IMG/VR virus record: IMGVR_UViG_3300027365_000064
Coordinates: 1 to 23,180 of that record
Origin: a virus
Strand: one strand, 5' to 3'
DNA length: 23,180 nt
Below are positions 607 to 14,508 of this stretch, piece after piece; within the stretch, counting starts at the first letter, position 1; each line of letters opens with the position of its first letter. A program made the position numbers and the translations under genes. The notes beneath the pieces were generated by a model. It was not told the DNA's origin. It ran no database searches and worked only from the letters and a program-made list of their open reading frames with translations.

Positions 607-645
607 TACGATAAAACGTGAAAGAGTTCAGGGGGTCCGAACGTG

Positions 646-3537
646 ATGGCAAGCACCACCAAGACATCACCGTTCCAAACCCCCCTCACAGTCCCCCGCG
701 AGAACCAAGATCCCCGCGTTGCAACCGCGTATAACCTCCTGAACGCATATCAAGAAGGGTTATATCTGGTTCACAAGACCACTCGGGCGGGATGCACGAC
801 AGCATCTGTAGCGGAGTCACTGAACCGCCAGGAACAATTCCTAGTTGTCGTACCAACTAATAAAATAGCCGATAAGACTGTCATTGCAGATTCTATCAAA
901 TATTCGGATAGAGATTCGTGCAATGTTATTCACATCCCATCGAATCATGCGTGTTTGAAGAATCAAGAACTGTGCGAGCTATATCCCGACCTTGAAAAAC
1001 TGCCTATACTGCCCCTTGCTGAGAAGTGTTCAGAATGTGAACAATACTATGATTGTCCGGTCACCCGGATAATTCACGAAGGCAGGACATGTGATGGTAT
1101 TGCACTGACCTACCAGAAGCTTGTAGCGTTAATGATGGCTTCGATGAGCAGGCCGAACACTACGGCAGAGCATGTACTTGATACAATCTCAAGAGTTCAC
1201 AATGCACTGTTCGATGAGGTCCACGAGATACAGTACGGCAAGTCTACGGCCATAATCATCTACAATGATGCAAGGAAGGATAAGAAACAGCTGGACACAT
1301 CGAACTTTCAGCCCGTTATGGACGAGTTTCCACATATACGGAAGATCGTTGCTAACTTCGAGATGTTGAGGAGTGAGCAGGCCGTTAAGAGTGCTCTCCT
1401 GCAGACCTACAACAATGCAGCGGATGAGGGATACTACCGGCACAAGCTCAGCATTACTATTCAGAACTCATACCACGAATTCGAGGACGACCAGACGAAG
1501 TTCATAATGGCCGTCTACAGTGAAATTATTCACCTGACCAAGGACAGAAAACGATACGGCCTTTCCATGGTGGATGTACTGAACCTGTATAAGATCCTCG
1601 GTGTGGTCACAAGTGAGAGAGTAGTCATACATGGTATCCGTGACCGTGGCTTCGTTAAGATCAGGATGGTTGCAGTTGACCAGATGTTCACGAGTATGCT
1701 CAGGTCGTACATAATGAGCATTCAGAACAAGGCAAAGAGGACACTGCTCACGTCGGCCACTATCTGCAGTCATGATTATGACCAATACTTCATGGGCAAT
1801 TCTGGACCCCAGAACATTACCTTTGGTACCGGTGGGGATCCAATGAATACCAATTCTAAAATGCTGATACTGGCAGATTCGAAGAAATATGGTGCTACTG
1901 GTAGGAACTCCCGGTACAACAAAAAGCATGAGATTCTTGAGAAGATAACAACTTTACTTGATTTGTACGGCGATGACGACTGCATCATAATCACGTTGAG
2001 CATTAAGGAAGCTACCGAACTGCAGGACGAGCTTGAAAGGTTCGGACATCCCCATCCAGTGACGTACTACAAGGCCCCTGAAATGATGGGTGTTTCTGCA
2101 GATGCTCGTGTGATGATTGCTGTCGGTGTAGCTGACAAGCCGAGTAACTCTTTTGATGCCATTACTGATACGAAAGAGGAATCTCTTGTACTTCGTGAGG
2201 AAGCGGTGCATTGTGATACCTGGCAGGCATGGTCCCGGGTCAAGGATCCCAACGGTGAGGTTCCGAGTTTGGTGTTTGCCCTTGGGTGTAACGCCGACCA
2301 GTGCAAAAACATCGTTACGTGGGGATTCAACCGGACAGTTGAGATCGATCAGAGTGACAGGAAGAGAGTTGTCAGAGTTCATGCTGACAAGAATGTGATT
2401 ACTTTTCCAGAGATTGTAAAATGCAGGGAGTTTGGTGAGATGTTAAACCTTGCTAATACACATAAACAGACTAAAAAACCTTTAGACAAATGTAAAACCA
2501 ATCTAAAAACTGCACAGAATTACCCTATATATTATATTATAGGGCAAATCAGTGCAAATATTAGATTCAATTTAGACAGTTCCAAATTCGACTTTATCAA
2601 AAACCACCTAATCAACAGATTCGATACATTTGCTGAACAGAACCACAATGGTACTCAATACATTCGAGTTTCTGTTCCATTGACTGACAGGGTAATTGAG
2701 AACCACATTGCCGGTAAGATCACAATTGGTGCATATTCAACGAGTACCGAGGGTACATGCAAATGGATATGTTACGATGTTGATGCACATCGGAAGAAAG
2801 ACGATACAGAAGAAGACGTTATTCAGAAAGAGTTGAAAGCAGAGGAAGACCTGAAAAACCTAACGTCATTCCTTGATAGTGTTGGTTTGAAGTACCTTGT
2901 TGAGTCCTCGGGTTCTCCACATTCGTATCATATCTGGTTATTCATTGAAGAAGTTGCCATTGAAAAAGCGCATTATTTCGCTAATGCAATCGCAAAAGAA
3001 GCCGGTTTTGATGGTGAAGTCAATCCAAAACAGCGCAAGTGGAACAAGGATAATCAGTACGGTAACCTCGTAAAATTGCCATTTGCATTCCACAGAAAAC
3101 ACAGAGTCTATTCTTTTATTCATGGATGGGAAGGTGAAACTATGGACATTCCAGTCTACGATATCTCAGACATTGAGATTCCTAAAAAGAGACAGAACAA
3201 GAAAAAGAACAAAGGAAAAACAATTAACGTCAAACTGAACGGAGTAAGACCCTGCATAATGTCAGCTTTGGAGAAAGATCTCTCTGGAGAACAAGGCAAC
3301 AAAATGCGAGTTGCTATTGTCAGAGAGTATCACAGTTTCGGCATGACTGACAGAGAACAACTTATCGCTCTATTTAGTGGTCAATCTGATTTCACTTACG
3401 AAAAGACATCTTACTATGTCAATAAGATCCTTGAGAGGGATTTCAGGCCATGGCCACAACAGACACTTCTTGAGAGGTGTCCGAAGTACCTGAACTGTGA
3501 CGAATGTGACAGGTTTGATTGTAAAGGAGGAAAGTAA
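646..3537 (+). CDS. Helicase-primase fusion (SF2-like helicase + AEP primase + PriL-like Cys tail)
   Basis: A 963-residue replication protein; residue numbers count from the alternative GTG at 643, one codon upstream. Residues 40-60 hold a P-loop-like segment (HKTTRAGCTT) in which the usual lysine is not present. DEVH at 191-194 is Walker B/motif II. Cysteines at 104, 111, 129, 132, 138 and 150 lie between them, as in the Fe-S region of XPD/DinG helicases. TSAT at 370-373 is motif III, and QAWSRVKDP near 528 resembles motif VI. The C-terminal part has AEP primase motifs: YDVD (711-714, metal-binding Asp pair), SYH (761-763) and GNLVKLPFAFH (807-817). The last ~95 residues (RPCI at 869, then C946, C952, C955, C960) resemble the Fe-S C-terminal domain of PriL. 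It probably unwinds DNA and primes viral replication. ATG 646 overlaps a TGA; GTG 643 remains possible. Confidence 0.85.
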   Translation: MASTTKTSPFQTPLTVPRENQDPRVATAYNLLNAYQEGLYLVHKTTRAGCTTASVAESLNRQEQFLVVVPTNKIADKTVIADSIKYSDRDSCNVIHIPSNHACLKNQELCELYPDLEKLPILPLAEKCSECEQYYDCPVTRIIHEGRTCDGIALTYQKLVALMMASMSRPNTTAEHVLDTISRVHNALFDEVHEIQYGKSTAIIIYNDARKDKKQLDTSNFQPVMDEFPHIRKIVANFEMLRSEQAVKSALLQTYNNAADEGYYRHKLSITIQNSYHEFEDDQTKFIMAVYSEIIHLTKDRKRYGLSMVDVLNLYKILGVVTSERVVIHGIRDRGFVKIRMVAVDQMFTSMLRSYIMSIQNKAKRTLLTSATICSHDYDQYFMGNSGPQNITFGTGGDPMNTNSKMLILADSKKYGATGRNSRYNKKHEILEKITTLLDLYGDDDCIIITLSIKEATELQDELERFGHPHPVTYYKAPEMMGVSADARVMIAVGVADKPSNSFDAITDTKEESLVLREEAVHCDTWQAWSRVKDPNGEVPSLVFALGCNADQCKNIVTWGFNRTVEIDQSDRKRVVRVHADKNVITFPEIVKCREFGEMLNLANTHKQTKKPLDKCKTNLKTAQNYPIYYIIGQISANIRFNLDSSKFDFIKNHLINRFDTFAEQNHNGTQYIRVSVPLTDRVIENHIAGKITIGAYSTSTEGTCKWICYDVDAHRKKDDTEEDVIQKELKAEEDLKNLTSFLDSVGLKYLVESSGSPHSYHIWLFIEEVAIEKAHYFANAIAKEAGFDGEVNPKQRKWNKDNQYGNLVKLPFAFHRKHRVYSFIHGWEGETMDIPVYDISDIEIPKKRQNKKKNKGKTINVKLNGVRPCIMSALEKDLSGEQGNKMRVAIVREYHSFGMTDREQLIALFSGQSDFTYEKTSYYVNKILERDFRPWPQQTLLERCPKYLNCDECDRFDCKGGK

Positions 3538-3539
3538 CC

Positions 3540-3659
3540 ATGGGTTACAAAAAATACGGCCAATGTATCACCCCCGGCTGCAAAAGTCGAGGAGCTGTGA
3601 AAGGGTACTGTAAAAACTGTTATCAAAAGGCCATGTACAGGAGGTCACGAAATGTCTGA
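3540..3659 (+). CDS. 39-aa zinc-finger-like protein
   Basis: ATG 3540 lies two bases after the primase stop and follows AAAGGAGGAAAG, a strong ribosome-binding site. The 39-residue product has a CITPGC pair (Cys 9, 14) and a CKNC pair (Cys 24, 27) with basic residues after it, a zinc-ribbon pattern familiar in phage and archaeal virus mini-proteins. Its stop overlaps the following gene (ATG at 3652 precedes TGA at 3657-3659). The exact role is unknown; a DNA-binding or protein-bridging role is inferred only from the fold-like pattern. Confidence 0.65.
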   Translation: MGYKKYGQCITPGCKSRGAVKGYCKNCYQKAMYRRSRNV

Positions 3660-3813
3660 ACTTGTCGACATCCTCCTCAGAGTAGCAGTACCCCTGAAAG
3701 AAGCAAGAGGTATGTGGAGAGAACTCCGGACCATTGATAAATCAAATATGCCACATACTCGGGCATTTTTGCAAGGTCTTGCTGAATTGGATGAAGTTAC
3801 ACGTGAGGATTGA
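3652..3813 (+). CDS. Hypothetical 53-aa protein
   Basis: It starts at ATG 3652 inside the end of the preceding zinc-finger gene, behind an AGGAGGTCACGAA ribosome-binding site, and ends at TGA 3811-3813. The product (MSELVDILLR... ending VTRED) is predicted to be mostly helical and amphipathic. It is the last gene before the stem-loop that precedes the terminase genes, so it ends the replication-gene series. I recognise no family. Confidence 0.6.
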   Translation: MSELVDILLRVAVPLKEARGMWRELRTIDKSNMPHTRAFLQGLAELDEVTRED

Positions 3814-3819
3814 CACAGA

Positions 3820-3851
3820 GCGTTGTGGTGAAAGATTTCCCACCCCAACGC
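3820..3851. other. Stem-loop before the terminase genes
   Basis: An 11-bp stem (3820-3830 with 3841-3851) with one mismatch and a 10-base loop. Left arm GCGTTGTGGTG, right arm CACCCCAACGC. It sits between the last replication-side mini-gene and TerS, in a ~107-base gap. No T-tract follows, so a simple intrinsic terminator is not obvious. Location fits a packaging-recognition (pac/cos) site or an RNA processing or terminating structure; the function is inference. Confidence 0.55.
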
Positions 3852-3929
3852 ATAGAGTTAAGTATGGGTGAGTTAAGAAAACATCCTTAGAACGCTTATT
3901 TCGAATTATTACCGATACAAGTGGTAAAA

Positions 3930-4433
3930 ATGGCAAATATAAATAAAATTGTAAAGTTTGACCTCGACGAAAGGGCCGTACACCTCCGGGGAGAAAAACG
4001 ACTTTCATTCAACGAGATCGCAACTACTCTGTCTGATGAGTCTGGCGAGAAGATATCGAAGGCATCTGTTCAGAGGTTCTTTGAAGCACGTGACAGAGAT
4101 AGACAGAAGGCAGTTGCTATGTCGTCAAAGTTACAGGCCAAGGTCGCAGAGGCCGAGATCAATACAGTAGGAAAACGGCAGGACCTCATCCAAAAACTCG
4201 AGGACCTTGCACAACTGGCAATTGAACAAGGTGATCTCAAAGTCGCCGTCGATGCTCTGAAGGAAGCAACCTCCGCATTGAATAGCCTCGACAAGTTACT
4301 TGGAAAGTATGAAACCAACCCGGCCGTACAGGTCAATCTAAACCAGGTGAACATAGATGGAGAACTCCGAGCTCTCTATGAGAGAGTTGCTGGCATTGAA
4401 GCCACCGAAGCAGCGTTTGAAGACGTTGAATGA
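3930..4433 (+). CDS. terS: Terminase small subunit (TerS) candidate
   Basis: A 167-residue protein from ATG 3930 (GTG 3921 would add three residues). The N-terminal ~55 residues form a likely helix-turn-helix: LRGEKRLSFNEIATTLS then ISKASVQRFFEAR. A long helical middle follows (to about residue 120), typical of the oligomerising region of small terminases. It directly precedes and overlaps TerL by 77 bases, the classic small/large terminase arrangement. TerS rings recognise viral DNA and hand it to the TerL motor, and the stem-loop just upstream could be a recognition site. Assignment rests on fold-like features and position rather than a conserved catalytic motif. Confidence 0.7.
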   Translation: MANINKIVKFDLDERAVHLRGEKRLSFNEIATTLSDESGEKISKASVQRFFEARDRDRQKAVAMSSKLQAKVAEAEINTVGKRQDLIQKLEDLAQLAIEQGDLKVAVDALKEATSALNSLDKLLGKYETNPAVQVNLNQVNIDGELRALYERVAGIEATEAAFEDVE

Positions 4434-5700
4434 TGCAGGCTTTGATACACCACAGAAACTCAAGATACTTGATGCTTCGTGGGGATTCAACGCGAGGCCG
4501 AAACAGAGGACTCCACCAGGTGATTGGCGCATCTGGCTTATCCTCGCAGGCAGAGGGTTCGGCAAAACGAGGACGGGTGCAGAATGGGTCCGGGAACAGG
4601 TTGAATCTGGAAAAGCAAAAAGAATTGCACTGGTCGGACCAACATCTGCAGATGCAAGGGATGTTATGATAGAAGGGGAGTCCGGCCTGCTTTCGGTGTG
4701 TCCGGAATGGAACAAGCCTTCATACGAACCATCAAAGAGACGCCTGACGTGGCCAAATGGTGCAATTGCCACAGCATATTCAGCAGATGAACCGGAAAGA
4801 CTGAGAGGACCACAACACGACTTTGCATGGTGTGACGAACTCGCTGCATGGAGATATCCTGAAGCATGGGACATGTTACAGTTCGGCCTTCGCCTTGGTG
4901 ATGATCCCAGGGTCATCGTGACAACCACGCCGAAACCAACACCTATGGTCAAAGAGCTTGTCAGGAATCCGAATGCATACATCACAAAAGGTTCAACTTA
5001 TGAGAACAGGGAGAACCTTGCACCTGCCTTCTTGGAAGCCATCGTTGGGAAGTATGAGGGTACCCGGTTAGGCCGACAAGAACTCAACGCAGAGATCCTT
5101 GACGACAACCCCGATGCACTCTGGCAACGTAAAGATATTGACGACAACCGGGTATCAAAAGTACCCGAACTCATACGAATTGTCGTCGGTGTGGATCCAG
5201 CAGCCACGTCAAAACAGGGCGCAGATGATACCGGTATTGTCGTCGCAGGTATTGATAAGAACAAACATGGGTACATCCTCGGGGACTATACCTGCCACCT
5301 GTCACCCAAGCAATGGGCCATTGAAGCAATTGCAGCTTTCAACAAACACCAGGCTGACCGGGTAGTCGGAGAAACGAACAACGGTGGTGAGATGGTCGAA
5401 CATACACTGAGAACAGTTGATCCGGGCATACCGTTCAAGTCTGTTCATGCATCGAGAGGGAAGCAGACCAGAGCAGAGCCGATATCCTCTTACTATGAGC
5501 AGGGACGGATTCATCATGTCGGTTCATTCCCTGCACTGGAAGATCAGATGTGTGATTGGGTTCCTGGTATAAGCGATTCACCGGACCGTGTTGACGCTTT
5601 GGTGTGGGCCTTGACTGAACTGTTGCCACCGGAGAAACCGAGACAGAGTGTTCCGAAGTTCTCACCTGGGTTTGGATTGTCAGGTGGAATGAGAATATGA
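4357..5700 (+). CDS. terL: Terminase large subunit (TerL)
   Basis: A 447-residue packaging motor with both expected domains. The ATPase has Walker A GRGFGKTRTG at about 65-74, Walker B with its catalytic glutamate in FAWCDE (156-161), and VTTTPKP (188-194) as the coupling motif. The C-terminal RNase-H-like nuclease has its acidic residues in VGVDP (D280), GETNNGG (E339) and SPDRVDA (D410, D413). It pumps genome into the prohead through the portal and cuts the concatemer. The start at 4357 is supported by AGGTGA at 4345-4350; it lies within the TerS gene, suggesting coupled translation. Length is normal to slightly short for the family. Confidence 0.96.
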   Translation: MENSELSMRELLALKPPKQRLKTLNDAGFDTPQKLKILDASWGFNARPKQRTPPGDWRIWLILAGRGFGKTRTGAEWVREQVESGKAKRIALVGPTSADARDVMIEGESGLLSVCPEWNKPSYEPSKRRLTWPNGAIATAYSADEPERLRGPQHDFAWCDELAAWRYPEAWDMLQFGLRLGDDPRVIVTTTPKPTPMVKELVRNPNAYITKGSTYENRENLAPAFLEAIVGKYEGTRLGRQELNAEILDDNPDALWQRKDIDDNRVSKVPELIRIVVGVDPAATSKQGADDTGIVVAGIDKNKHGYILGDYTCHLSPKQWAIEAIAAFNKHQADRVVGETNNGGEMVEHTLRTVDPGIPFKSVHASRGKQTRAEPISSYYEQGRIHHVGSFPALEDQMCDWVPGISDSPDRVDALVWALTELLPPEKPRQSVPKFSPGFGLSGGMRI

Positions 5701-5771
5701 ATATGGGTGGCACCGAGATCGCCAAATAGAGGAAGATAATCCCCGAGTATCTTCCAACAATAATCGGACAA

Positions 5772-5790
5772 TTCAACTTTCCTTTATATA
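5772..5790 (+). promoter_or_regulatory. Late-type promoter copy 1 (TTCAACTTTCCTTTATATA)
   Basis: One of four copies of the same 19-bp element. The TTTATATA box (5783-5790) begins 31 bases before the portal ATG at 5814, so an archaeal initiation distance puts transcription start at or next to the start codon, giving a leaderless message. No ribosome-binding site precedes that ATG, which agrees. The upstream TTCAACTTTCC half would occupy the BRE and a possible activator site. Confidence 0.75.
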
Positions 5791-5813
5791 CTCCACACTC
5801 ACCATTTTTCTAC

Positions 5814-7523
5814 ATGCGATTACCAAAACTCTTCTCATCAACTCCACCCACCACAACATCAAAAAAGAATGTCCCGGTCGGTGCGTATGTAGGTGATGAC
5901 CCCTACCAAACCTACATCACCACCCTAAAGTGGATCAAAGAAACAAAGGCCAAAATGCCAGACGGTTCTGTATTCGAAGTCACGCCGTCTATGAGGGAGG
6001 AAGCATTTGAAACAGATCCTCTCCTGAAAGGCACAATCACACCATTTCTGAAGAATTCTATCCTGGGTGACTACCAGCTGGTAACAGAAGATAACAAAAA
6101 ATATGAATCTGCCATCAGAGAGATAAAACAATATCTCAGTGAGATTGGTCTACTGGATGCATTCAGAGATGATTTCAAAGACCTGACAATAGTCCATGGT
6201 CATGCATATCGTCGCAAGGATCCTGATAAGGACAATATAGAATCCCTGGCACCACTCAAGAATGCCACAATCACAACATATCGGGACCCATGGGACAGCA
6301 CCTTTGCAGCATACCATCAGAAGATCTACGTAAATGATTCGTGGACGGAGAATCCATCAACATCTGAGTACAATTCGTGGTTCATTCCAAATGGTGGCCG
6401 ATACATCGAGGGTGAATATGAAGACCGCGGTGCAAAAGCACATTTTGATTTCATCAAGATGAAGTATGGAATCACAGATACCACCAATCTCCGGGTAGAT
6501 TCATCAGACCGTATTGTTGCCATGCATCGTGTAGAGCCGGATGAGCCGGCACCGATTGATTCTGCAATTCTGGCAATCTGGCTTAAGAGGTTACTGCTCA
6601 CCAACTCACCTAATATTATATTCAGAGTGTTATCTCCATTTGTCCATATCAAAAACGGCCTTGTCATGGAGGTCACTGGTGCAGATGGTGGAAAGGATCT
6701 CATCACCACGGTACCGCAGCAACCACCAGAGGAAATGTCGACAACTGATCCAGAGAGATATGCAGCCGAGAGTTCAATCTACAATGCATGGGTCACAGCA
6801 TGTAAGACAGCTGCAAAGAATGTACTCACATCACTGAAGGACGGGGGAATCTTCAGTTCAGGTCCTGATACAGAACTTGAAGTTGTTGAATCTGGCAGGT
6901 CTGTCCCTTCCGCCTTCATCAAAACAATGCTAGACCTACTAGATCAGGAGATTGGACAGTCTTTCGGTTTCCCGGTTGCACTTGTGAAGGCGAATGGTTC
7001 TGAATTGGCAACTTCACGTACTATCCTGGAACTTTTCAACACAACCTATGCAGGTGTGAGAAGAGAATATGAGAAAGTAGCTGACAAACTCATCAGAGAG
7101 AGATTTGAGGGCATGTCATGGCAGTATGAAGTACCCACAAAAGACGGTGGAACCGACACAGGCACTTTCACATTTGATGATATGGCCTGTCATTTCAAAT
7201 TGTCTGTTACTGATGTAAGTGACCAACTCAAAGAAGCTCAGGCCAAAATGCAGAAGATGAAGACACTGCAGATTGCTAAACAGGTTGGTGCAGATCGGTC
7301 TGATATCCAGGCACTTGGAGAAGAATATGGCTTTGGAATGCTCGACCTTGACAATTACGACAATGCTCAGGAACAACCTAATATCCCATTCAACATGCCT
7401 TCGACCAGTGTTCAGAGTACATCTGAAGAGTTAGAACCTTCCGAGGTTACTGACGAAGACGACCTACCGGATGCTTTGTTCGAGGCATACAAAAAAGGCA
7501 TTTCAAAAATTAAGGAACTGTGA
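5814..7523 (+). CDS. Portal protein
   Basis: A 569-residue portal. It follows TerL and precedes the MuF-like gene, the fixed order of HK97-type head modules. Sequence features fit: a long alpha/beta body, the segment DPLLKGTITPFLKNSILGDY (about 67-86) resembling the portal wing, and the stretch IGQSFGFPVALV (about 382-393) followed by ATSRTILELFN, typical of the conserved clip/stem region. The last ~60 residues are acidic and low in complexity, as often seen. The dodecameric ring forms the DNA entry channel at the capsid vertex and docks TerL and then the head-tail adaptor. Start ATG 5814 is chosen from the promoter spacing; translation is probably leaderless. Confidence 0.9.
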   Translation: MRLPKLFSSTPPTTTSKKNVPVGAYVGDDPYQTYITTLKWIKETKAKMPDGSVFEVTPSMREEAFETDPLLKGTITPFLKNSILGDYQLVTEDNKKYESAIREIKQYLSEIGLLDAFRDDFKDLTIVHGHAYRRKDPDKDNIESLAPLKNATITTYRDPWDSTFAAYHQKIYVNDSWTENPSTSEYNSWFIPNGGRYIEGEYEDRGAKAHFDFIKMKYGITDTTNLRVDSSDRIVAMHRVEPDEPAPIDSAILAIWLKRLLLTNSPNIIFRVLSPFVHIKNGLVMEVTGADGGKDLITTVPQQPPEEMSTTDPERYAAESSIYNAWVTACKTAAKNVLTSLKDGGIFSSGPDTELEVVESGRSVPSAFIKTMLDLLDQEIGQSFGFPVALVKANGSELATSRTILELFNTTYAGVRREYEKVADKLIRERFEGMSWQYEVPTKDGGTDTGTFTFDDMACHFKLSVTDVSDQLKEAQAKMQKMKTLQIAKQVGADRSDIQALGEEYGFGMLDLDNYDNAQEQPNIPFNMPSTSVQSTSEELEPSEVTDEDDLPDALFEAYKKGISKIKEL

Positions 7524-9869: not shown

Positions 9870-10718
9870 ATGGCAGGAACAATCACTCCTTCGAATATCG
9901 ATGGCTCACTTGATGCCAAGTACATAGCAATGCGTGTCCTCAAGGGCGCAATAGAACAGACCGACCTTGCACCGATGTGTATGTCCGTGCAGGTTCCTGA
10001 ACTCGTGGCAACCGTGCCAGTGTACTCAGTACCTGCCGGAAACGAAGACCTTGAACCGATGGAAGAGTCTGAAATTGACGGTTCCGAGTTCACCAATGTG
10101 GACTTTGACCTCAAGAAAGACAGGGTTAAGGTTGCAGTAACTGACGAGGCCAGATACAAGTCACGTGCTGGTGATCCTCTCACACTTCAGATAGGTGGTG
10201 CATCCGACAGACTTGCACAGATCCTGAACAAGAAGATTGTCACTGCTATGAACACCACACCACAGACTTCTGCAGGTGCTGATTGGTCCGGAGCCAACAA
10301 TCCAATTGCAGACATCGCAACTGCAGTAGCTGCACTCAGGCCATACAAGGCAGACTACTGTCTCATGGGTTCAACCGCATTTGCCAACTATGTTGGAAAC
10401 AGTTCTATCGCCAACTTCGGCACAGGGAACATTGGCCAGTTTGCCAACGCCGTCGCCGTCGTGCCGGGTTATAACCTTCCGATCTACGTCAGTTCAGAAG
10501 TGGATGACAACGTTGCAGATGACGCTACGTTTGTAGTTGCATCAAAAGCACCTGGCGCAGTGATTGGTAACGGTCCTGTCAAGGTCCGCAGAAAGGACCT
10601 TATGAGTGGTGCAGAGGTGTACCAGATCGATGTCTGGAGAGAAGTCGTCTCTAACATCCACGATACTGGAAGTTCCACCAACAAGGCAGTGTACAAACTG
10701 ACAGGCCTGGACGGCTAA
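9870..10718 (+). CDS. Major capsid protein (HK97 fold)
   Basis: A 282-residue protein at the standard major-capsid position. Features of the HK97 fold: an N-terminal arm, the P-domain helix region DRLAQILNKKIVTAMNTTPQ (about 111-130), an A-domain region CLMGSTAFANY (about 164-174) followed by LPIYVSSEV, and the C-terminal beta segment with GPVKVRRKDLMSGAEVYQIDVWREVV. It lacks an obvious long N-terminal delta domain, consistent with a separate scaffold. It forms the icosahedral shell. Confidence 0.9.
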   Translation: MAGTITPSNIDGSLDAKYIAMRVLKGAIEQTDLAPMCMSVQVPELVATVPVYSVPAGNEDLEPMEESEIDGSEFTNVDFDLKKDRVKVAVTDEARYKSRAGDPLTLQIGGASDRLAQILNKKIVTAMNTTPQTSAGADWSGANNPIADIATAVAALRPYKADYCLMGSTAFANYVGNSSIANFGTGNIGQFANAVAVVPGYNLPIYVSSEVDDNVADDATFVVASKAPGAVIGNGPVKVRRKDLMSGAEVYQIDVWREVVSNIHDTGSSTNKAVYKLTGLDG

Positions 10719-10751
10719 CCCCGTCCGCCATGGTTTTTATGAGGTGTATCA

Positions 10752-10886
10752 ATGGTAGATCAACCGTGGATCCCGGGAAAATTGGCAGAGCAATACCTAC
10801 AGTCCATCGCAGGAACAATAGATGATAGTGGGGAATACCCAGTGATCCGTGTGCGCAACGAAGCAATTGACGGTGGGACTGCGTAA
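10752..10886 (+). CDS. 44-aa protein after the capsid gene
   Basis: ATG 10752 follows GAGGTG at 10741-10746 and the frame ends at TAA 10884-10886. The product starts MVDQPWIPGK and continues with LAEQYLQSIAGT and EYPVIRVRNEA. It lies between the major capsid and head-tail adaptor genes and is preceded by a short gap (10719-10740) with no other feature. Small proteins at this place are often head-completion or decoration accessories, but I recognise no family. Confidence 0.6.
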   Translation: MVDQPWIPGKLAEQYLQSIAGTIDDSGEYPVIRVRNEAIDGGTA

Positions 10887-10904
10887 TACTACAGAGGTGA
10901 CAAG

Positions 10905-11306
10905 ATGTCCCTGATCACTAAGGCGGATATCGAAGATGAGCTGCAGCTGACACTCCCAACTGGATACACAGATGCAATCATCTCAACTATTGCAGAGACC
11001 GCAGAAGATTTGTTGAAGATCCGGACAAAGAGATCAGCGTTCACAGGTTCAGCAGCCAATCTTGCAACGAAGTATGTTTTGTTCAAGAGCATTGACCAGC
11101 TGCTGACTACCAGTCCTGATCTTGTTAAGACTGATGTCAAGAAGATCTCAGAAAACGATGCTAGTGTGGAATTCTTTGACACTGGTCGAAAACTCAAAGA
11201 CTATGCAACTGAAGCCGAGAGCATTTTGAAGCAGCTGGTGATCAGGCCGGCACGGACAAGCTACAGCTACGTGAACGAATCTACATTCTATGCGGAGGAT
11301 TCATGA
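10905..11306 (+). CDS. Head-tail adaptor (gp6-like connector)
   Basis: A 133-residue mostly helical protein behind a consensus AGAGGTGACAAG site. It starts SLITKADIEDELQLTLP, the characteristic opening of gp6/Gp15-type head-tail connectors (a helix with Thr-x-x-Asp/Glu), and continues with helices YTDAIISTIAETAEDLLKI and LATKYVLFKSIDQLL. Adaptor rings dock under the portal. The stop overlaps the next start (ATGA). Confidence 0.75.
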   Translation: MSLITKADIEDELQLTLPTGYTDAIISTIAETAEDLLKIRTKRSAFTGSAANLATKYVLFKSIDQLLTTSPDLVKTDVKKISENDASVEFFDTGRKLKDYATEAESILKQLVIRPARTSYSYVNESTFYAEDS

Positions 11307-11446
11307 TTGAAGACTGCTCGATGTGTAGGTTTTTCCATCCACGAACATTAGGTGACGGCGAGTGTAGGAAGAACGCACCTGCCACGGGCAGAGTGTTCCC
11401 AATGGTGCCTGTTGATGGATGGTGCGGACAATTCATAGAGAGGTGA
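11303..11446 (+). CDS. 47-aa Cys-rich protein (C..C, C, WCG type)
   Basis: ATG 11303 overlaps the adaptor stop. Cysteines at 5, 8, 21 and 41 occur in the pattern CSMCRFFHPR, GECRKNAP and DGWCGQF. This CxxC...GxCRxxxP...WCGxF arrangement is common in small phage proteins and probably binds one zinc. Its function is unknown. It ends just before the ribosome-binding site of the membrane mini-protein. Confidence 0.75.
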   Translation: MIEDCSMCRFFHPRTLGDGECRKNAPATGRVFPMVPVDGWCGQFIER

Positions 11447-11450
11447 CAAA

Positions 11451-11648
11451 ATGTACGAAAATCACATCGAAACTGTAGCCGGGTTCGTCGTGGGTGCAAT
11501 CGGAACAGGTGTTGTTCTAGCTCGTACCTGGTGGACAGGCAAGACAAAGGAACAGAAGAAAGAGTTTGTCAAGGACACACTGGCAGCACTGGCAGATAGG
11601 AATATCACAATTGATGAAGCATCTGCAATGATTGATGAGCATTTCTGA
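11451..11648 (+). CDS. 65-aa single-pass membrane protein
   Basis: Residues about 8-27 (TVAGFVVGAIGTGVVLARTW) form one transmembrane helix, followed by a charged cytoplasmic-type region ending IDEASAMIDEHF. The ribosome-binding site is GAGGTGACAAA. Together with the next gene it forms a pair of small membrane proteins placed before the tail-tip gene, which could serve host exit (holin-like) or superinfection functions. No diagnostic family motif is present. Confidence 0.6.
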   Translation: MYENHIETVAGFVVGAIGTGVVLARTWWTGKTKEQKKEFVKDTLAALADRNITIDEASAMIDEHF

Positions 11649-11657
11649 GGTTCATAC

Positions 11658-11894
11658 ATGCCAGAACATGATCTCCTAATGCAATTAAATAAGGATATCA
11701 AAGAAGTATGCAGGGCTGTCGGGAGGATAGAGGAGAAGGTTGACAACTCTATCAAAGCGGACAGTCAACTGTGTGATGTAATGGAAACACTCGATGATCG
11801 GGTTACCTGTCTTGAACATAAAGATATCTATAGGACCGGTGTAGCCGGGGGTATTGCCATAATAGTTTCCGGGATAATGGGCTGGATTAGGTGA
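11658..11894 (+). CDS. 78-aa coiled coil plus C-terminal membrane helix (XhlA-like)
   Basis: Residues 1-55 are amphipathic and heptad-like (LMQLNKDIKEVCRAVGRIEE, then LDDRVTCLEHK); residues about 60-77 (GVAGGIAIIVSGIMGWI) form a terminal transmembrane helix. This topology matches XhlA/hemolysin-type small proteins that assist holins. GAGGTTCATAC precedes ATG 11658. The function is inferred from topology only; structural coiled-coil roles are possible. Confidence 0.55.
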   Translation: MPEHDLLMQLNKDIKEVCRAVGRIEEKVDNSIKADSQLCDVMETLDDRVTCLEHKDIYRTGVAGGIAIIVSGIMGWIR

Positions 11895-11925
11895 CACAGA
11901 TATTAATATACAGAAGATGATAACA

Positions 11926-13275
11926 ATGCCAAGAAACCAACTAATACAAATCAGGCGAGATACTACGGCACACTGGGCATCTGAAAACCCCGTGCTTGCA
12001 GCAGGTGAACCATGCTACGATAGTGACAATGGCATCTTGAAGATAGGAGATGGATCCACACCATATTCACAGTTGGCACCTGTTGCACCAGGAAAGGACA
12101 TCATGCCCGTGGGAATTGAGTGGGATACTTCCAGTTCATCTCCATCGCTAACACAAATCGATATCAATGGCAATACTATAACACCAACTACTTCATTCTT
12201 CGACAATCATGCAATATTCGGCAGCATGTGGAGGTGTGTGGTTGATCCAGACACCGGTGAGGTGTCCTATGGTAGCAACCCGAGAGGTGACGGGCTTGAT
12301 CTAACAGGCGCATCTGGAAACGTTATGGTAGAAATACCAAAATTCTACGTGAAGTTTGAATCTTCCGGTGATATCCGGAAATGGTGGGTCAGCCCAATTG
12401 CTTTGTCTGGTTTCGAGGTGCATCCAATGTTCAAAATGCGTGGAGGGGCGGTTAGACCAAAGATATACCTCTCTGCATACGAGGCAGCCGGGGTACTTGA
12501 TACAGTTTTCAAACTCGTGAGTGCAACAAACAAAACACCCGTGACCGGAGACGTCGCATATCCTGATCTTCCTAATTCAGGTAGATTCACAATAGATGAT
12601 GCAGAAACATACGCAAATAATATTGGTTCTGGGTATGGATGTATGAATATATGGACAATGTCGGCAATTCGTCTTTTGTTCTATACAGAAATGGGTAGTT
12701 TGGACAGTCAAACCGCACTTGGCAGGGGTGTAGTAGATTTAGATGCTGGTACTGGGTTTGCCGGACTCAACACAGGTGCAGATTCCGCAGATACGAATAT
12801 CGGTACTAACGGAACAGGGACAGGCACAGGAGTCGATGGCGAAACACCTATTGTGTACAGAGGCATTGAGAATCTATGGGGGAATGTATGGCAATTCTGT
12901 ATCGGATACAATGCAGTAGATGCAGAATACCGTATCACTCCACGTGACGGGACAGGAGTACTTGCAGGAGATCTTGCAGCAGGGGAATATGAGGCAAGCA
13001 TCGTAGAGCCTATACTCTCAGACGGCTACCAATCGGATGTGGAAACAGAGAATCTGCTGCAGTATCTGATGATAGGGTCAGAGGTATCTGGCAGCAGTAG
13101 CACATATCTATGTGATTATTTCTATGTGCATGATGCAGGAGAAACAAACATTCTGCTCTCCGGCGGGTCTTGGTATTACGGGTCGTCTCCGGGGGTCGGT
13201 TATCTGTTTTCGTCTGGCGGGTCTTCGAATTCGAATCGGACTATCGGCGCTCGCTTCGAGTTTATCCCGCAGTGA
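11926..13275 (+). CDS. Mtd-like receptor-binding protein, DGR variable protein
   Basis: A 449-residue protein (residue numbers from ATG 11917, three residues longer). The N-terminus IQIRRDTTAHWASENPVLAA...GILKIGDGSTPYSQL matches the Mtd N-terminal/tail-fibre repeat family. The rest is a C-type-lectin/FGE-like fold: a central domain with WTMSAIRLLFYTEMG, a Gly/Thr-rich loop near 300, and YRGIENLWGNVWQFCIGYNA (about 316-335). The C-terminal 40 residues (LLSGGSWYYG..., ending IGARFEFIPQ) form the ligand-binding variable region of DGR target proteins. It probably determines host receptor specificity at the tail tip. It is the last gene of an insert-like cassette, with an unassigned gene next. Confidence 0.85.
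   Translation: MPRNQLIQIRRDTTAHWASENPVLAAGEPCYDSDNGILKIGDGSTPYSQLAPVAPGKDIMPVGIEWDTSSSSPSLTQIDINGNTITPTTSFFDNHAIFGSMWRCVVDPDTGEVSYGSNPRGDGLDLTGASGNVMVEIPKFYVKFESSGDIRKWWVSPIALSGFEVHPMFKMRGGAVRPKIYLSAYEAAGVLDTVFKLVSATNKTPVTGDVAYPDLPNSGRFTIDDAETYANNIGSGYGCMNIWTMSAIRLLFYTEMGSLDSQTALGRGVVDLDAGTGFAGLNTGADSADTNIGTNGTGTGTGVDGETPIVYRGIENLWGNVWQFCIGYNAVDAEYRITPRDGTGVLAGDLAAGEYEASIVEPILSDGYQSDVETENLLQYLMIGSEVSGSSSTYLCDYFYVHDAGETNILLSGGSWYYGSSPGVGYLFSSGGSSNSNRTIGARFEFIPQ
13159..13272 (+). other. Putative DGR variable region (VR)
   Basis: The last codons of the receptor-binding gene show the hallmarks of adenine-directed mutagenesis. Twelve codons between 13168 and 13236 (TCT, TAT, TAC, TCT, GGT, TAT, TTT, TCT, GGC, TCT, AAT, AAT) are each derivable from AAT/AAC by changing adenines only, and the stretch is poor in A compared with the surrounding gene. 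An unvarying GC-rich tail follows (13237-13272). A 12-bp palindrome, TTCGAATTCGAA, lies at 13224-13235. The template repeat is not in this window, so the exact limits are inferred. Confidence 0.7.
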
Positions 13276-13288
13276 CTGAGGTTGCCAT

Positions 13289-13762
13289 ATGAGTGAAGAA
13301 AAGATACCAAAATTCAGTGAATTTGCTAGGGGCAAGAAACATCTTATCGGTGAAAAGATGAAACTGAAAGATGTCCTTGAAATCCCGATAGTCGTCACTG
13401 GCTACAAGGTAGACAAAATCAAATGGGGAAATACCATGGTAGAATCGACAATTGAACCAGCAGAACTTGAAATAGATAAAATCAAAGGTGGCAGAGCAAG
13501 GATACTCTGCAGATGGAATATTGAACAGATATCCCGGACAGATGAATCGTCAAAAGACCCTCATACACTGTGGCAGTACGAAGAAGCTGCGCTGTGGTGG
13601 ACATTCCCCCACTCAGATAACGGGAATGTACTTGATAATATCCTCGCGATAGACTCATATGTGCAGGCTAATAAGGAAGAGATAATGAACTTTGCGAGGG
13701 GGACACAGATCAGTATCACTTTGCGAGGGGGACACAGATCAGTATCAAAAGAGGCTGCATAA
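13289..13762 (+). CDS. Unassigned 157-aa protein with duplicated, frameshifted 3' end
   Basis: It starts at ATG 13289 after GAGGTTGCCAT. The first third (KFSEFARGKKHLIGEKMKLKDVLEIPIVVTGY) has the look of a small beta-barrel/ssDNA-binding-type viral protein, and W-rich helical sequence follows (LWQYEEAALWWTFP). It occupies the place where DGR accessory genes often stand, but it is not Avd-like. A 29-bp exact tandem duplication at 13691-13748 shifts the frame after ARGTQISI; without it the frame would read on to a TGA at about 13834, through an IS200/IS605-like hairpin. The present C-terminus (TLRGGHRSVSKEAA) is therefore probably secondary. Function unknown. Confidence 0.65.
   Translation: MSEEKIPKFSEFARGKKHLIGEKMKLKDVLEIPIVVTGYKVDKIKWGNTMVESTIEPAELEIDKIKGGRARILCRWNIEQISRTDESSKDPHTLWQYEEAALWWTFPHSDNGNVLDNILAIDSYVQANKEEIMNFARGTQISITLRGGHRSVSKEAA
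13691..13748 (+). repeat. Tandem 29-bp duplication inside a gene
   Basis: Two adjacent copies of TTTGCGAGGGGGACACAGAT plus nine further bases, at 13691-13719 and 13720-13748, differing only in the last base. Twenty-nine is not a multiple of three, so the second copy is read in another frame. Near identity suggests a recent event. Confidence 0.95.
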
Positions 13763-13787
13763 ATTACAAAGCAATCAACCGTAGAAC

Positions 13788-13808
13788 CCCACGAACTTTA
13801 GTCGTGGG
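13788..13808. mobile_element. IS200/IS605-type end hairpin remnant
   Basis: A perfect 7-bp stem CCCACGA / TCGTGGG with loop ACTTTAG. The string CCCACGA-ACTTTAG-TCGTGGG closely resembles the subterminal hairpin at the right end of many IS200/IS605 (TnpA/TnpB) elements. No TnpA or TnpB gene is present, so this would be a leftover end or a short non-autonomous element. A simple transcription-stop hairpin is the alternative. Confidence 0.4.
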
Positions 13809-13863
13809 AGTATATCAGAAAATCACTGTGAAGTGAAAGAAAAATAAACATAGTGGAGTGAAC

Positions 13864-14226
13864 ATGACATTTGCATTATTCGATTATCCGAGAACAGTCA
13901 CAAACGTTGACGTGACCGAGGGCTACACTAATCAAACAACTGGTGCATGGGTTCCAGAATCCACAGAGGAAACGGAAATTGATGCCCATATCAGTGATAT
14001 CACCCTGAAAGAACGACAGTACCTCGATGCAGCTGTTCTGGAGAAAGGAGCCAGAAAACTCACCTGCCGTTCAGATGTTGGTCTGGTCGTTGGTGACAGG
14101 GTGAAGATTACTGAAGAAGATTCCACAGAAACAGAATGGATCGTGAATGCGAAGTTATCAGAATCTAATTTGATGGAACAATATCTGGATAGTTCGAGGT
14201 CAACATTTTTGTTAGTAAGGAAATAA
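13864..14226 (+). CDS. Head-tail stopper/closure-like protein
   Basis: A 120-residue protein from ATG 13864 (GTG 13858 adds two residues) after TGGAGTG. The composition is beta-rich, with the segment GDRVKITEEDSTETEWIVNAKL (about 79-100), typical of head-closure proteins whose beta barrel seals the connector. It lies between the adaptor (separated by the inserted cassette) and the gp10/gpG-like neck protein, the usual stopper position. Motif support is weak; position carries most of the assignment. Confidence 0.6.
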   Translation: MTFALFDYPRTVTNVDVTEGYTNQTTGAWVPESTEETEIDAHISDITLKERQYLDAAVLEKGARKLTCRSDVGLVVGDRVKITEEDSTETEWIVNAKLSESNLMEQYLDSSRSTFLLVRK

Positions 14227-14234
14227 TTATATTC
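14222..14234 (+). promoter_or_regulatory. Possible TATA-type promoter before the Cys-rich pair
   Basis: The AT-rich stretch AATAATTATATTC (14222-14234) lies about 26-37 bases before ATG 14260, which has no ribosome-binding site. This fits an archaeal TATA box with a leaderless start. It does not share the TTCAACTTTCC element of the late promoters. Confidence 0.4.
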
Positions 14235-14259
14235 TAACAGAGCGTATTATGTAATTACG

Positions 14260-14508
14260 ATGTTCGTTTGCCGACGTGATGGATTGCTCCGAGTCTGTAC
14301 ATCAGACTGTCCTTATAGAAGTACCTGTGAACAGCACAAGATACCTTTTTTGATCTCGACGCTCAATGCATCATGCATGTCACCGAAGACCACCGAAGAT
14401 GATTTTTGTATCTCGGTGTTCCCTACAGTTGAAACCCACCAAGACGCCTACATCAACGACATTGTAAACCATGACAGAAACAACATTAGTGTCCTGTGCA
14501 AATCCTGA
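14260..14508 (+). CDS. 82-aa Cys-rich protein
   Basis: Starts at ATG 14260 about 30 bases after a TATA-like stretch, with no ribosome-binding site. Cysteines at 4, 13, 17 and 23 form a likely metal knuckle (C..C...C.....C), and the C-terminal half has two more (39, 49) without clear spacing. It overlaps the next gene by 38 bases. I recognise no family; a mini zinc-binding protein is inferred. Confidence 0.5.
   Translation: MFVCRRDGLLRVCTSDCPYRSTCEQHKIPFLISTLNASCMSPKTTEDDFCISVFPTVETHQDAYINDIVNHDRNNISVLCKS

Follow-up and report, generated by a model that had tools for sequence, protein, structure and literature searches.

The C-terminal region of a tail gene in a virus that likely infects methanogens is a genuine variable repeat (VR) of a diversity-generating retroelement (DGR). 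It is probably a target orphaned by recent loss of its cassette and now frozen. The sequence analysed, hereafter the window, is the whole of IMG/VR record IMGVR_UViG_3300027365_000064 (23,180 bases, class linear). The comparisons below establish adenine-specific variation in the VR, a template repeat (TR) and reverse transcriptase (RT) in two relatives, three distinct deletion scars, and the absence of RT and TR from two closed sister genomes. The window contains terminase, capsid and tape-measure genes. Its major capsid protein has 41% identity to BK063669, a Methanomicrobiales virus, and the RT of its relatives has 46% identity to the RT of BK063673, a Methanosarcinales virus. Given these matches to methanogen viruses, a methanogen host is likely.

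The target gene and its variable repeat

The target gene (11917–13275, + strand) encodes a 452-aa tail/receptor protein with an N-terminal Mtd_N domain (Pfam PF18454, E=1.9e-15), which places it in the Mtd family, and with the VR at its C-terminus. The product also matches the tail protein PHROG 5302 (E=5e-61). It may display its variable residues on a C-type-lectin-like fold; profile comparison gives a weak match to PDB 5vf4_A. An AlphaFold model of the protein was discarded (mean pLDDT 29). We infer that this tail protein recognises the host.

The VR (∼13153–13260, + strand) departs almost only at template adenines from the TR found in two related contigs, L001 and L002 (see next section). 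That TR aligns without gaps to window positions 13161–13260. Twenty-three of the 100 sites differ, and 22 of these are at template A (hypergeometric p = 1.8e-13); the single exception is a G to C change at 13189. Adenine makes up 10.5% of positions 13159–13272, as against 30% in the remaining gene and window, and the lowest-A 100-nt intervals of the whole record fall exactly in this region. The preliminary description, made from the window alone, had read the C-terminus as variable-region-like, with twelve AAY-derivable codons implying adenine mutagenesis. Comparison with the true TR confirms both the VR and the mutagenesis but lowers the count to 10 AAY-derived codons, plus TAT and ATC. At the 3′ end of the VR, the sequence suggests a possible target-site hairpin (CTCG-CTT-CGAG, 13250–13260, + strand). 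It is invariant in nine of nine VRs and takes the broken form CTCA-CTT-CGAG in the TR, and its predicted fold is weak, no better than that of shuffled sequences.

No RT (PF00078) was found in the 23,180-base window. Nor was a TR, that is, a second copy of the VR, found in it on either strand, and a search for divergent and reverse-strand copies gave none above background. Lacking both the DGR-type RT and the TR, the window does not itself hold a DGR system.

Relatives with the complete cassette

A search of viral contigs yielded nine related loci, and the VR alignment comprises the window VR, eight others and the TR. The target gene and its VR/TR pattern were absent from genome_contigs (one-per-species genomes), and a profile scan gave no further close relative with the full tail gene. 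Two of the relatives, L001 and L002, carry a full DGR beside the same gene. In L001, the VR (4371–4470) is followed by an accessory ORF (4499–4804; full protein 101 aa), the TR (4842–4941, 471 bases beyond the VR), a DGR-type RT (4983–6119) and a downstream gene (6116–6430); the L002 TR lies at 1606–1705. The RTs contain the motifs IGNYLSQ and YCDD. They belong to a DGR family, as 62 of 65 relatives examined have a neighbouring TR/VR pair whose mismatches are A-biased. At about 30 of these 65 DGR loci, a homologue of the accessory protein is encoded next to the RT; the protein has no Pfam match and only marginal PHROG and NCBIfam matches.

The VRs of L001 and L002 differ at eight sites, all eight at TR adenines, and outside the VR there are zero differences across 3237–6378. 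Nine more differences at 6379–6409 mark the end of the shared sequence. A similar pattern separates the window from G004, a 96%-identical relative. Here, 17 of 99 VR sites differ, 16 of them at template A, whereas the flanks differ at 18 of 2462 sites upstream (11 of the 18 cluster at 12924–12963) and at 0 of 85 downstream, so that variation is confined to the VR. The preliminary description had named two findings that would speak against it, namely absence of a TR anywhere and a lack of A-derived differences between close relatives. Both turned out the other way, given the TR of L001 and L002 and the A-derived differences within these two pairs.

Deletion scars

Directly after the VR, the window retains a remnant of the DGR accessory gene (13289–13418, + strand), consisting of its first ∼43 codons and near-identical to L001 4499–4628. 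An earlier statement that the window contains no RT, TR or Avd-like gene thus holds for RT and TR but overlooked this remnant of the accessory gene. The remnant ends at a deletion junction (13419–13435, + strand) of 17 nt of no clear source, where ∼1.49 kb present in L001 is missing, namely the remainder of the accessory gene together with TR and RT. Beyond it, the gene that follows the RT in L001 (13436–13762, + strand) is fused in frame to the accessory start, forming a 157-aa ORF (13289–13762).

Other relatives carry different junctions. Compared with L001, G004 lacks exactly 1,503 bp, in a deletion with 1 bp of microhomology; its sequence is identical to L001 over 98 bp to the left and 197 bp to the right, and the final 19 RT codons remain as a scar. 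G007 has a third junction, at which the accessory gene is reduced to MSEEIRKFSEV. In G005/G006, G008 and G009 the downstream gene comes directly after the VR gene. Related viruses thus show what appears to be the same cassette loss more than once. Exact end repeats (127 bp in G004, 55 bp in G007) mark two of these records as closed genomes. Neither contains an RT or a TR, so the cassette is not elsewhere in those genomes. Three options had been offered for the window: a DGR elsewhere in its genome, a DGR in the host, or freezing after loss of the machinery. The closed sisters disfavour the first, and freezing is the best supported of the three, with one scar in the window and different ones in G004 and G007.

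The ancestor of the window virus would have carried the usual array of an Mtd-like gene with its VR, an accessory gene, a TR and an RT. The RT would have made errors at adenines while copying TR RNA, and the resulting cDNA would have replaced the VR and altered the ligand-binding tip of the tail protein. Later, TR, RT and the greater part of the accessory gene would have been lost in a deletion that fused the flanking genes and left the VR frozen in its last state. On this account, diversification presumably occurred in cis before the loss, and the window VR is presumably static now. Freezing is favoured because rewriting would erase the non-A change at 13189. It is also favoured because the VRs of G005 and G006, which lack the cassette and come from two metagenomes, are identical, although their whole overlap is identical too and the comparison therefore carries little information.

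A probable common template

The evidence that counts against an orphaned, frozen VR is its homogeneity among viruses whose flanks differ by 20–30%. In each pair compared, just 0–2 of the VR's 68 non-A positions differ. At fourfold-degenerate sites, 21 virus pairs show 0/370 differences in the VR and 85/257 just upstream; the pairs are not independent, and these are bare counts for which no p-value is claimed. When diverged lineages are compared, identity is 72–93% over the 100 bases before the VR and mostly 40–70% over the 30 bases after it. Since synonymous VR sites are identical across diverged viruses, all the VRs seem to derive, by writing or by exchange, from almost the same template. The pattern suggests that the VRs, those of cassette-less viruses included, were copied from a TR that was common to them or had been shared very recently, and a single mutation template seems to have served the related viruses. 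Long-independent cis systems or long-frozen VRs would have drifted; therefore, either both the loss and the sharing of the module are recent, or writing in trans continues. The simplest account is that the module was shared recently and written in cis, and that the cassette was then lost repeatedly.

The TR of L001 and L002 disagrees with the VRs at nine of its adenines: of the 81 VR cells aligned to these sites, 78 contain G and three contain A. Each of the nine is a CpA dinucleotide in the TR and a CpG in the VRs, and at one of them, a synonymous alanine position, every VR has G. Either the writing TR had G at these sites and the L001 TR has changed since, or selection or an A-to-G bias was at work. 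RT errors are context-dependent, with a mean misincorporation of about 31% (PMC12875486). This known bias was rejected as the cause, as such a mean does not yield the observed share of G. When the phage and plasmid sets were searched with a predicted TR carrying G at all nine positions, the only hit was a partial match in a Bacteroides phage. Outside L001 and L002, no TR was found in viral_contigs, and none at all in genome_contigs, phages or plasmids.

Alternative explanations

Instead of cassette loss in each lineage, the 3′ end of the tail gene could have spread with its VR by homologous recombination, so that some recipients never had a cassette in cis. We regard this as possible but doubtful. 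Exchange has evidently occurred in these viruses: positions 10401–13345 of the window are near-identical to G004 in backbones that are about 70–80% identical on either side, and this capsid-end to tail-gene segment is best read as a recent exchange. Likewise, L002 carries the L001 module in a backbone whose 3′ flank is 94.7% identical to cassette-less G008, and the absence of any accessory remnant from G005/G006, G008 and G009 fits recipients of this kind. However, recombination tracts are not expected to stop at the limits of TR homology in every pair, and between lineages identity falls at once on both sides of the VR. Cassette remnants are, moreover, present in the window, G004 and G007.

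Writing in trans would mean that the DGR of a co-infecting virus, a provirus or the host still diversifies the cassette-less viruses, among them that of the window, from one common TR. This would account for the identical fourfold sites and for VR homogeneity that starts and stops near the limits of TR homology. There is precedent inside one bacterial genome (PMC10907252), and L001, with the cassette, and G006, without it, come from the same IMG metagenome (3300035038). We nonetheless consider it unlikely. A TR was found in only two of the viral contigs, the L001 TR alone fits poorly as the writer given its nine discordant adenines, the window VR has kept a non-A change, and the G005 and G006 VRs are identical. 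Slightly less likely again is a mutator shared among viruses. Under this reading, one cassette, carried by only a few methanogen viruses, would act in trans on the receptor-binding genes of several other viruses that lack it and infect the same hosts. If true, viruses could lose the machinery yet stay diversified.

An assembly artefact, with the cassette present in the virus and skipped by the assembler, is very improbable. The sequences are indeed metagenome contigs, but at least three records have distinct junctions, the fused reading frames are intact in the window and G004, two records have exact end repeats, and L001 and L002 were assembled with the cassette. An ordinary hypervariable tail tip under positive selection that was never a DGR target is refuted for the family and practically inconceivable here, as the changes lie at template A and a TR with matching adenines adjoins the same gene in relatives, together with a DGR-type RT.

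Comparison with known systems

The orphaned target resembles that of the Bordetella phage BPP-1 DGR (mtd, avd, TR, brt) in its Mtd_N-type tail gene, C-terminal VR and adenine-specific changes, and L001 has the BPP-1 order of VR, accessory gene, TR and RT. Unlike BPP-1, the window lacks TR and RT, the accessory protein belongs to no Pfam family and the likely host is archaeal. The archaeal virus ANMV-1 (PMC4372165) likewise has an Mtd-like target by tail genes, with a VR of ∼110 bp; its short hairpin may correspond to the possible one described here. It was reported with a complete cassette, whereas here the cassette is deleted, with breakpoints that differ among related viruses.

Orphan targets have been described in Treponema denticola, where strains without RT or TR have target genes with adenine-type VR differences that were read as leftovers of DGR loss (PMC4891356). 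Those cases share with ours the adenine-type differences without RT or TR, but they concern bacterial chromosomes with several targets; here the genomes are viral, the scars lie beside the VR, and the VR is homogeneous among distinct viruses. In Thiohalocapsa PB-PSB1, degenerate and remote DGR loci and their trans matches all lie inside one bacterial genome (PMC10907252), whereas our match is between different virus genomes. We found no report in the open-access literature of orphan targets after DGR loss, or of trans matches, between viruses. These viruses offer a natural experiment on DGR loss, with closed genomes with and without the cassette, near-identical flanks for dating and precise scars. 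The identity of synonymous VR sites across diverged viruses also makes DGR action between viruses testable.

Additional features of the window and its relatives

Several further observations concern the same genomes. The window encodes a 964-aa protein (643–3537) with an AEP-TOTE primase domain and a helicase-like part that is unmatched in phage records. In a further relative, L098, a wholly different gene set without an RT, including a 723-aa protein, stands in place of the tail-gene/DGR module (10865–14486). Inside the fused ORF of the window, a perfect 29-bp tandem duplication (13689–13746) adds 30 bp relative to the single copy in G004; because the surrounding stretch is otherwise identical to G004, the duplication appears to be very recent. 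The window also has a 51-bp insertion (13768–13818) that G004 lacks. It contains the hairpin CCCACGA-ACTTTAG-TCGTGGG and has no Rfam match at gathering scores, and we take it to resemble the end of an IS200/IS605-type element.
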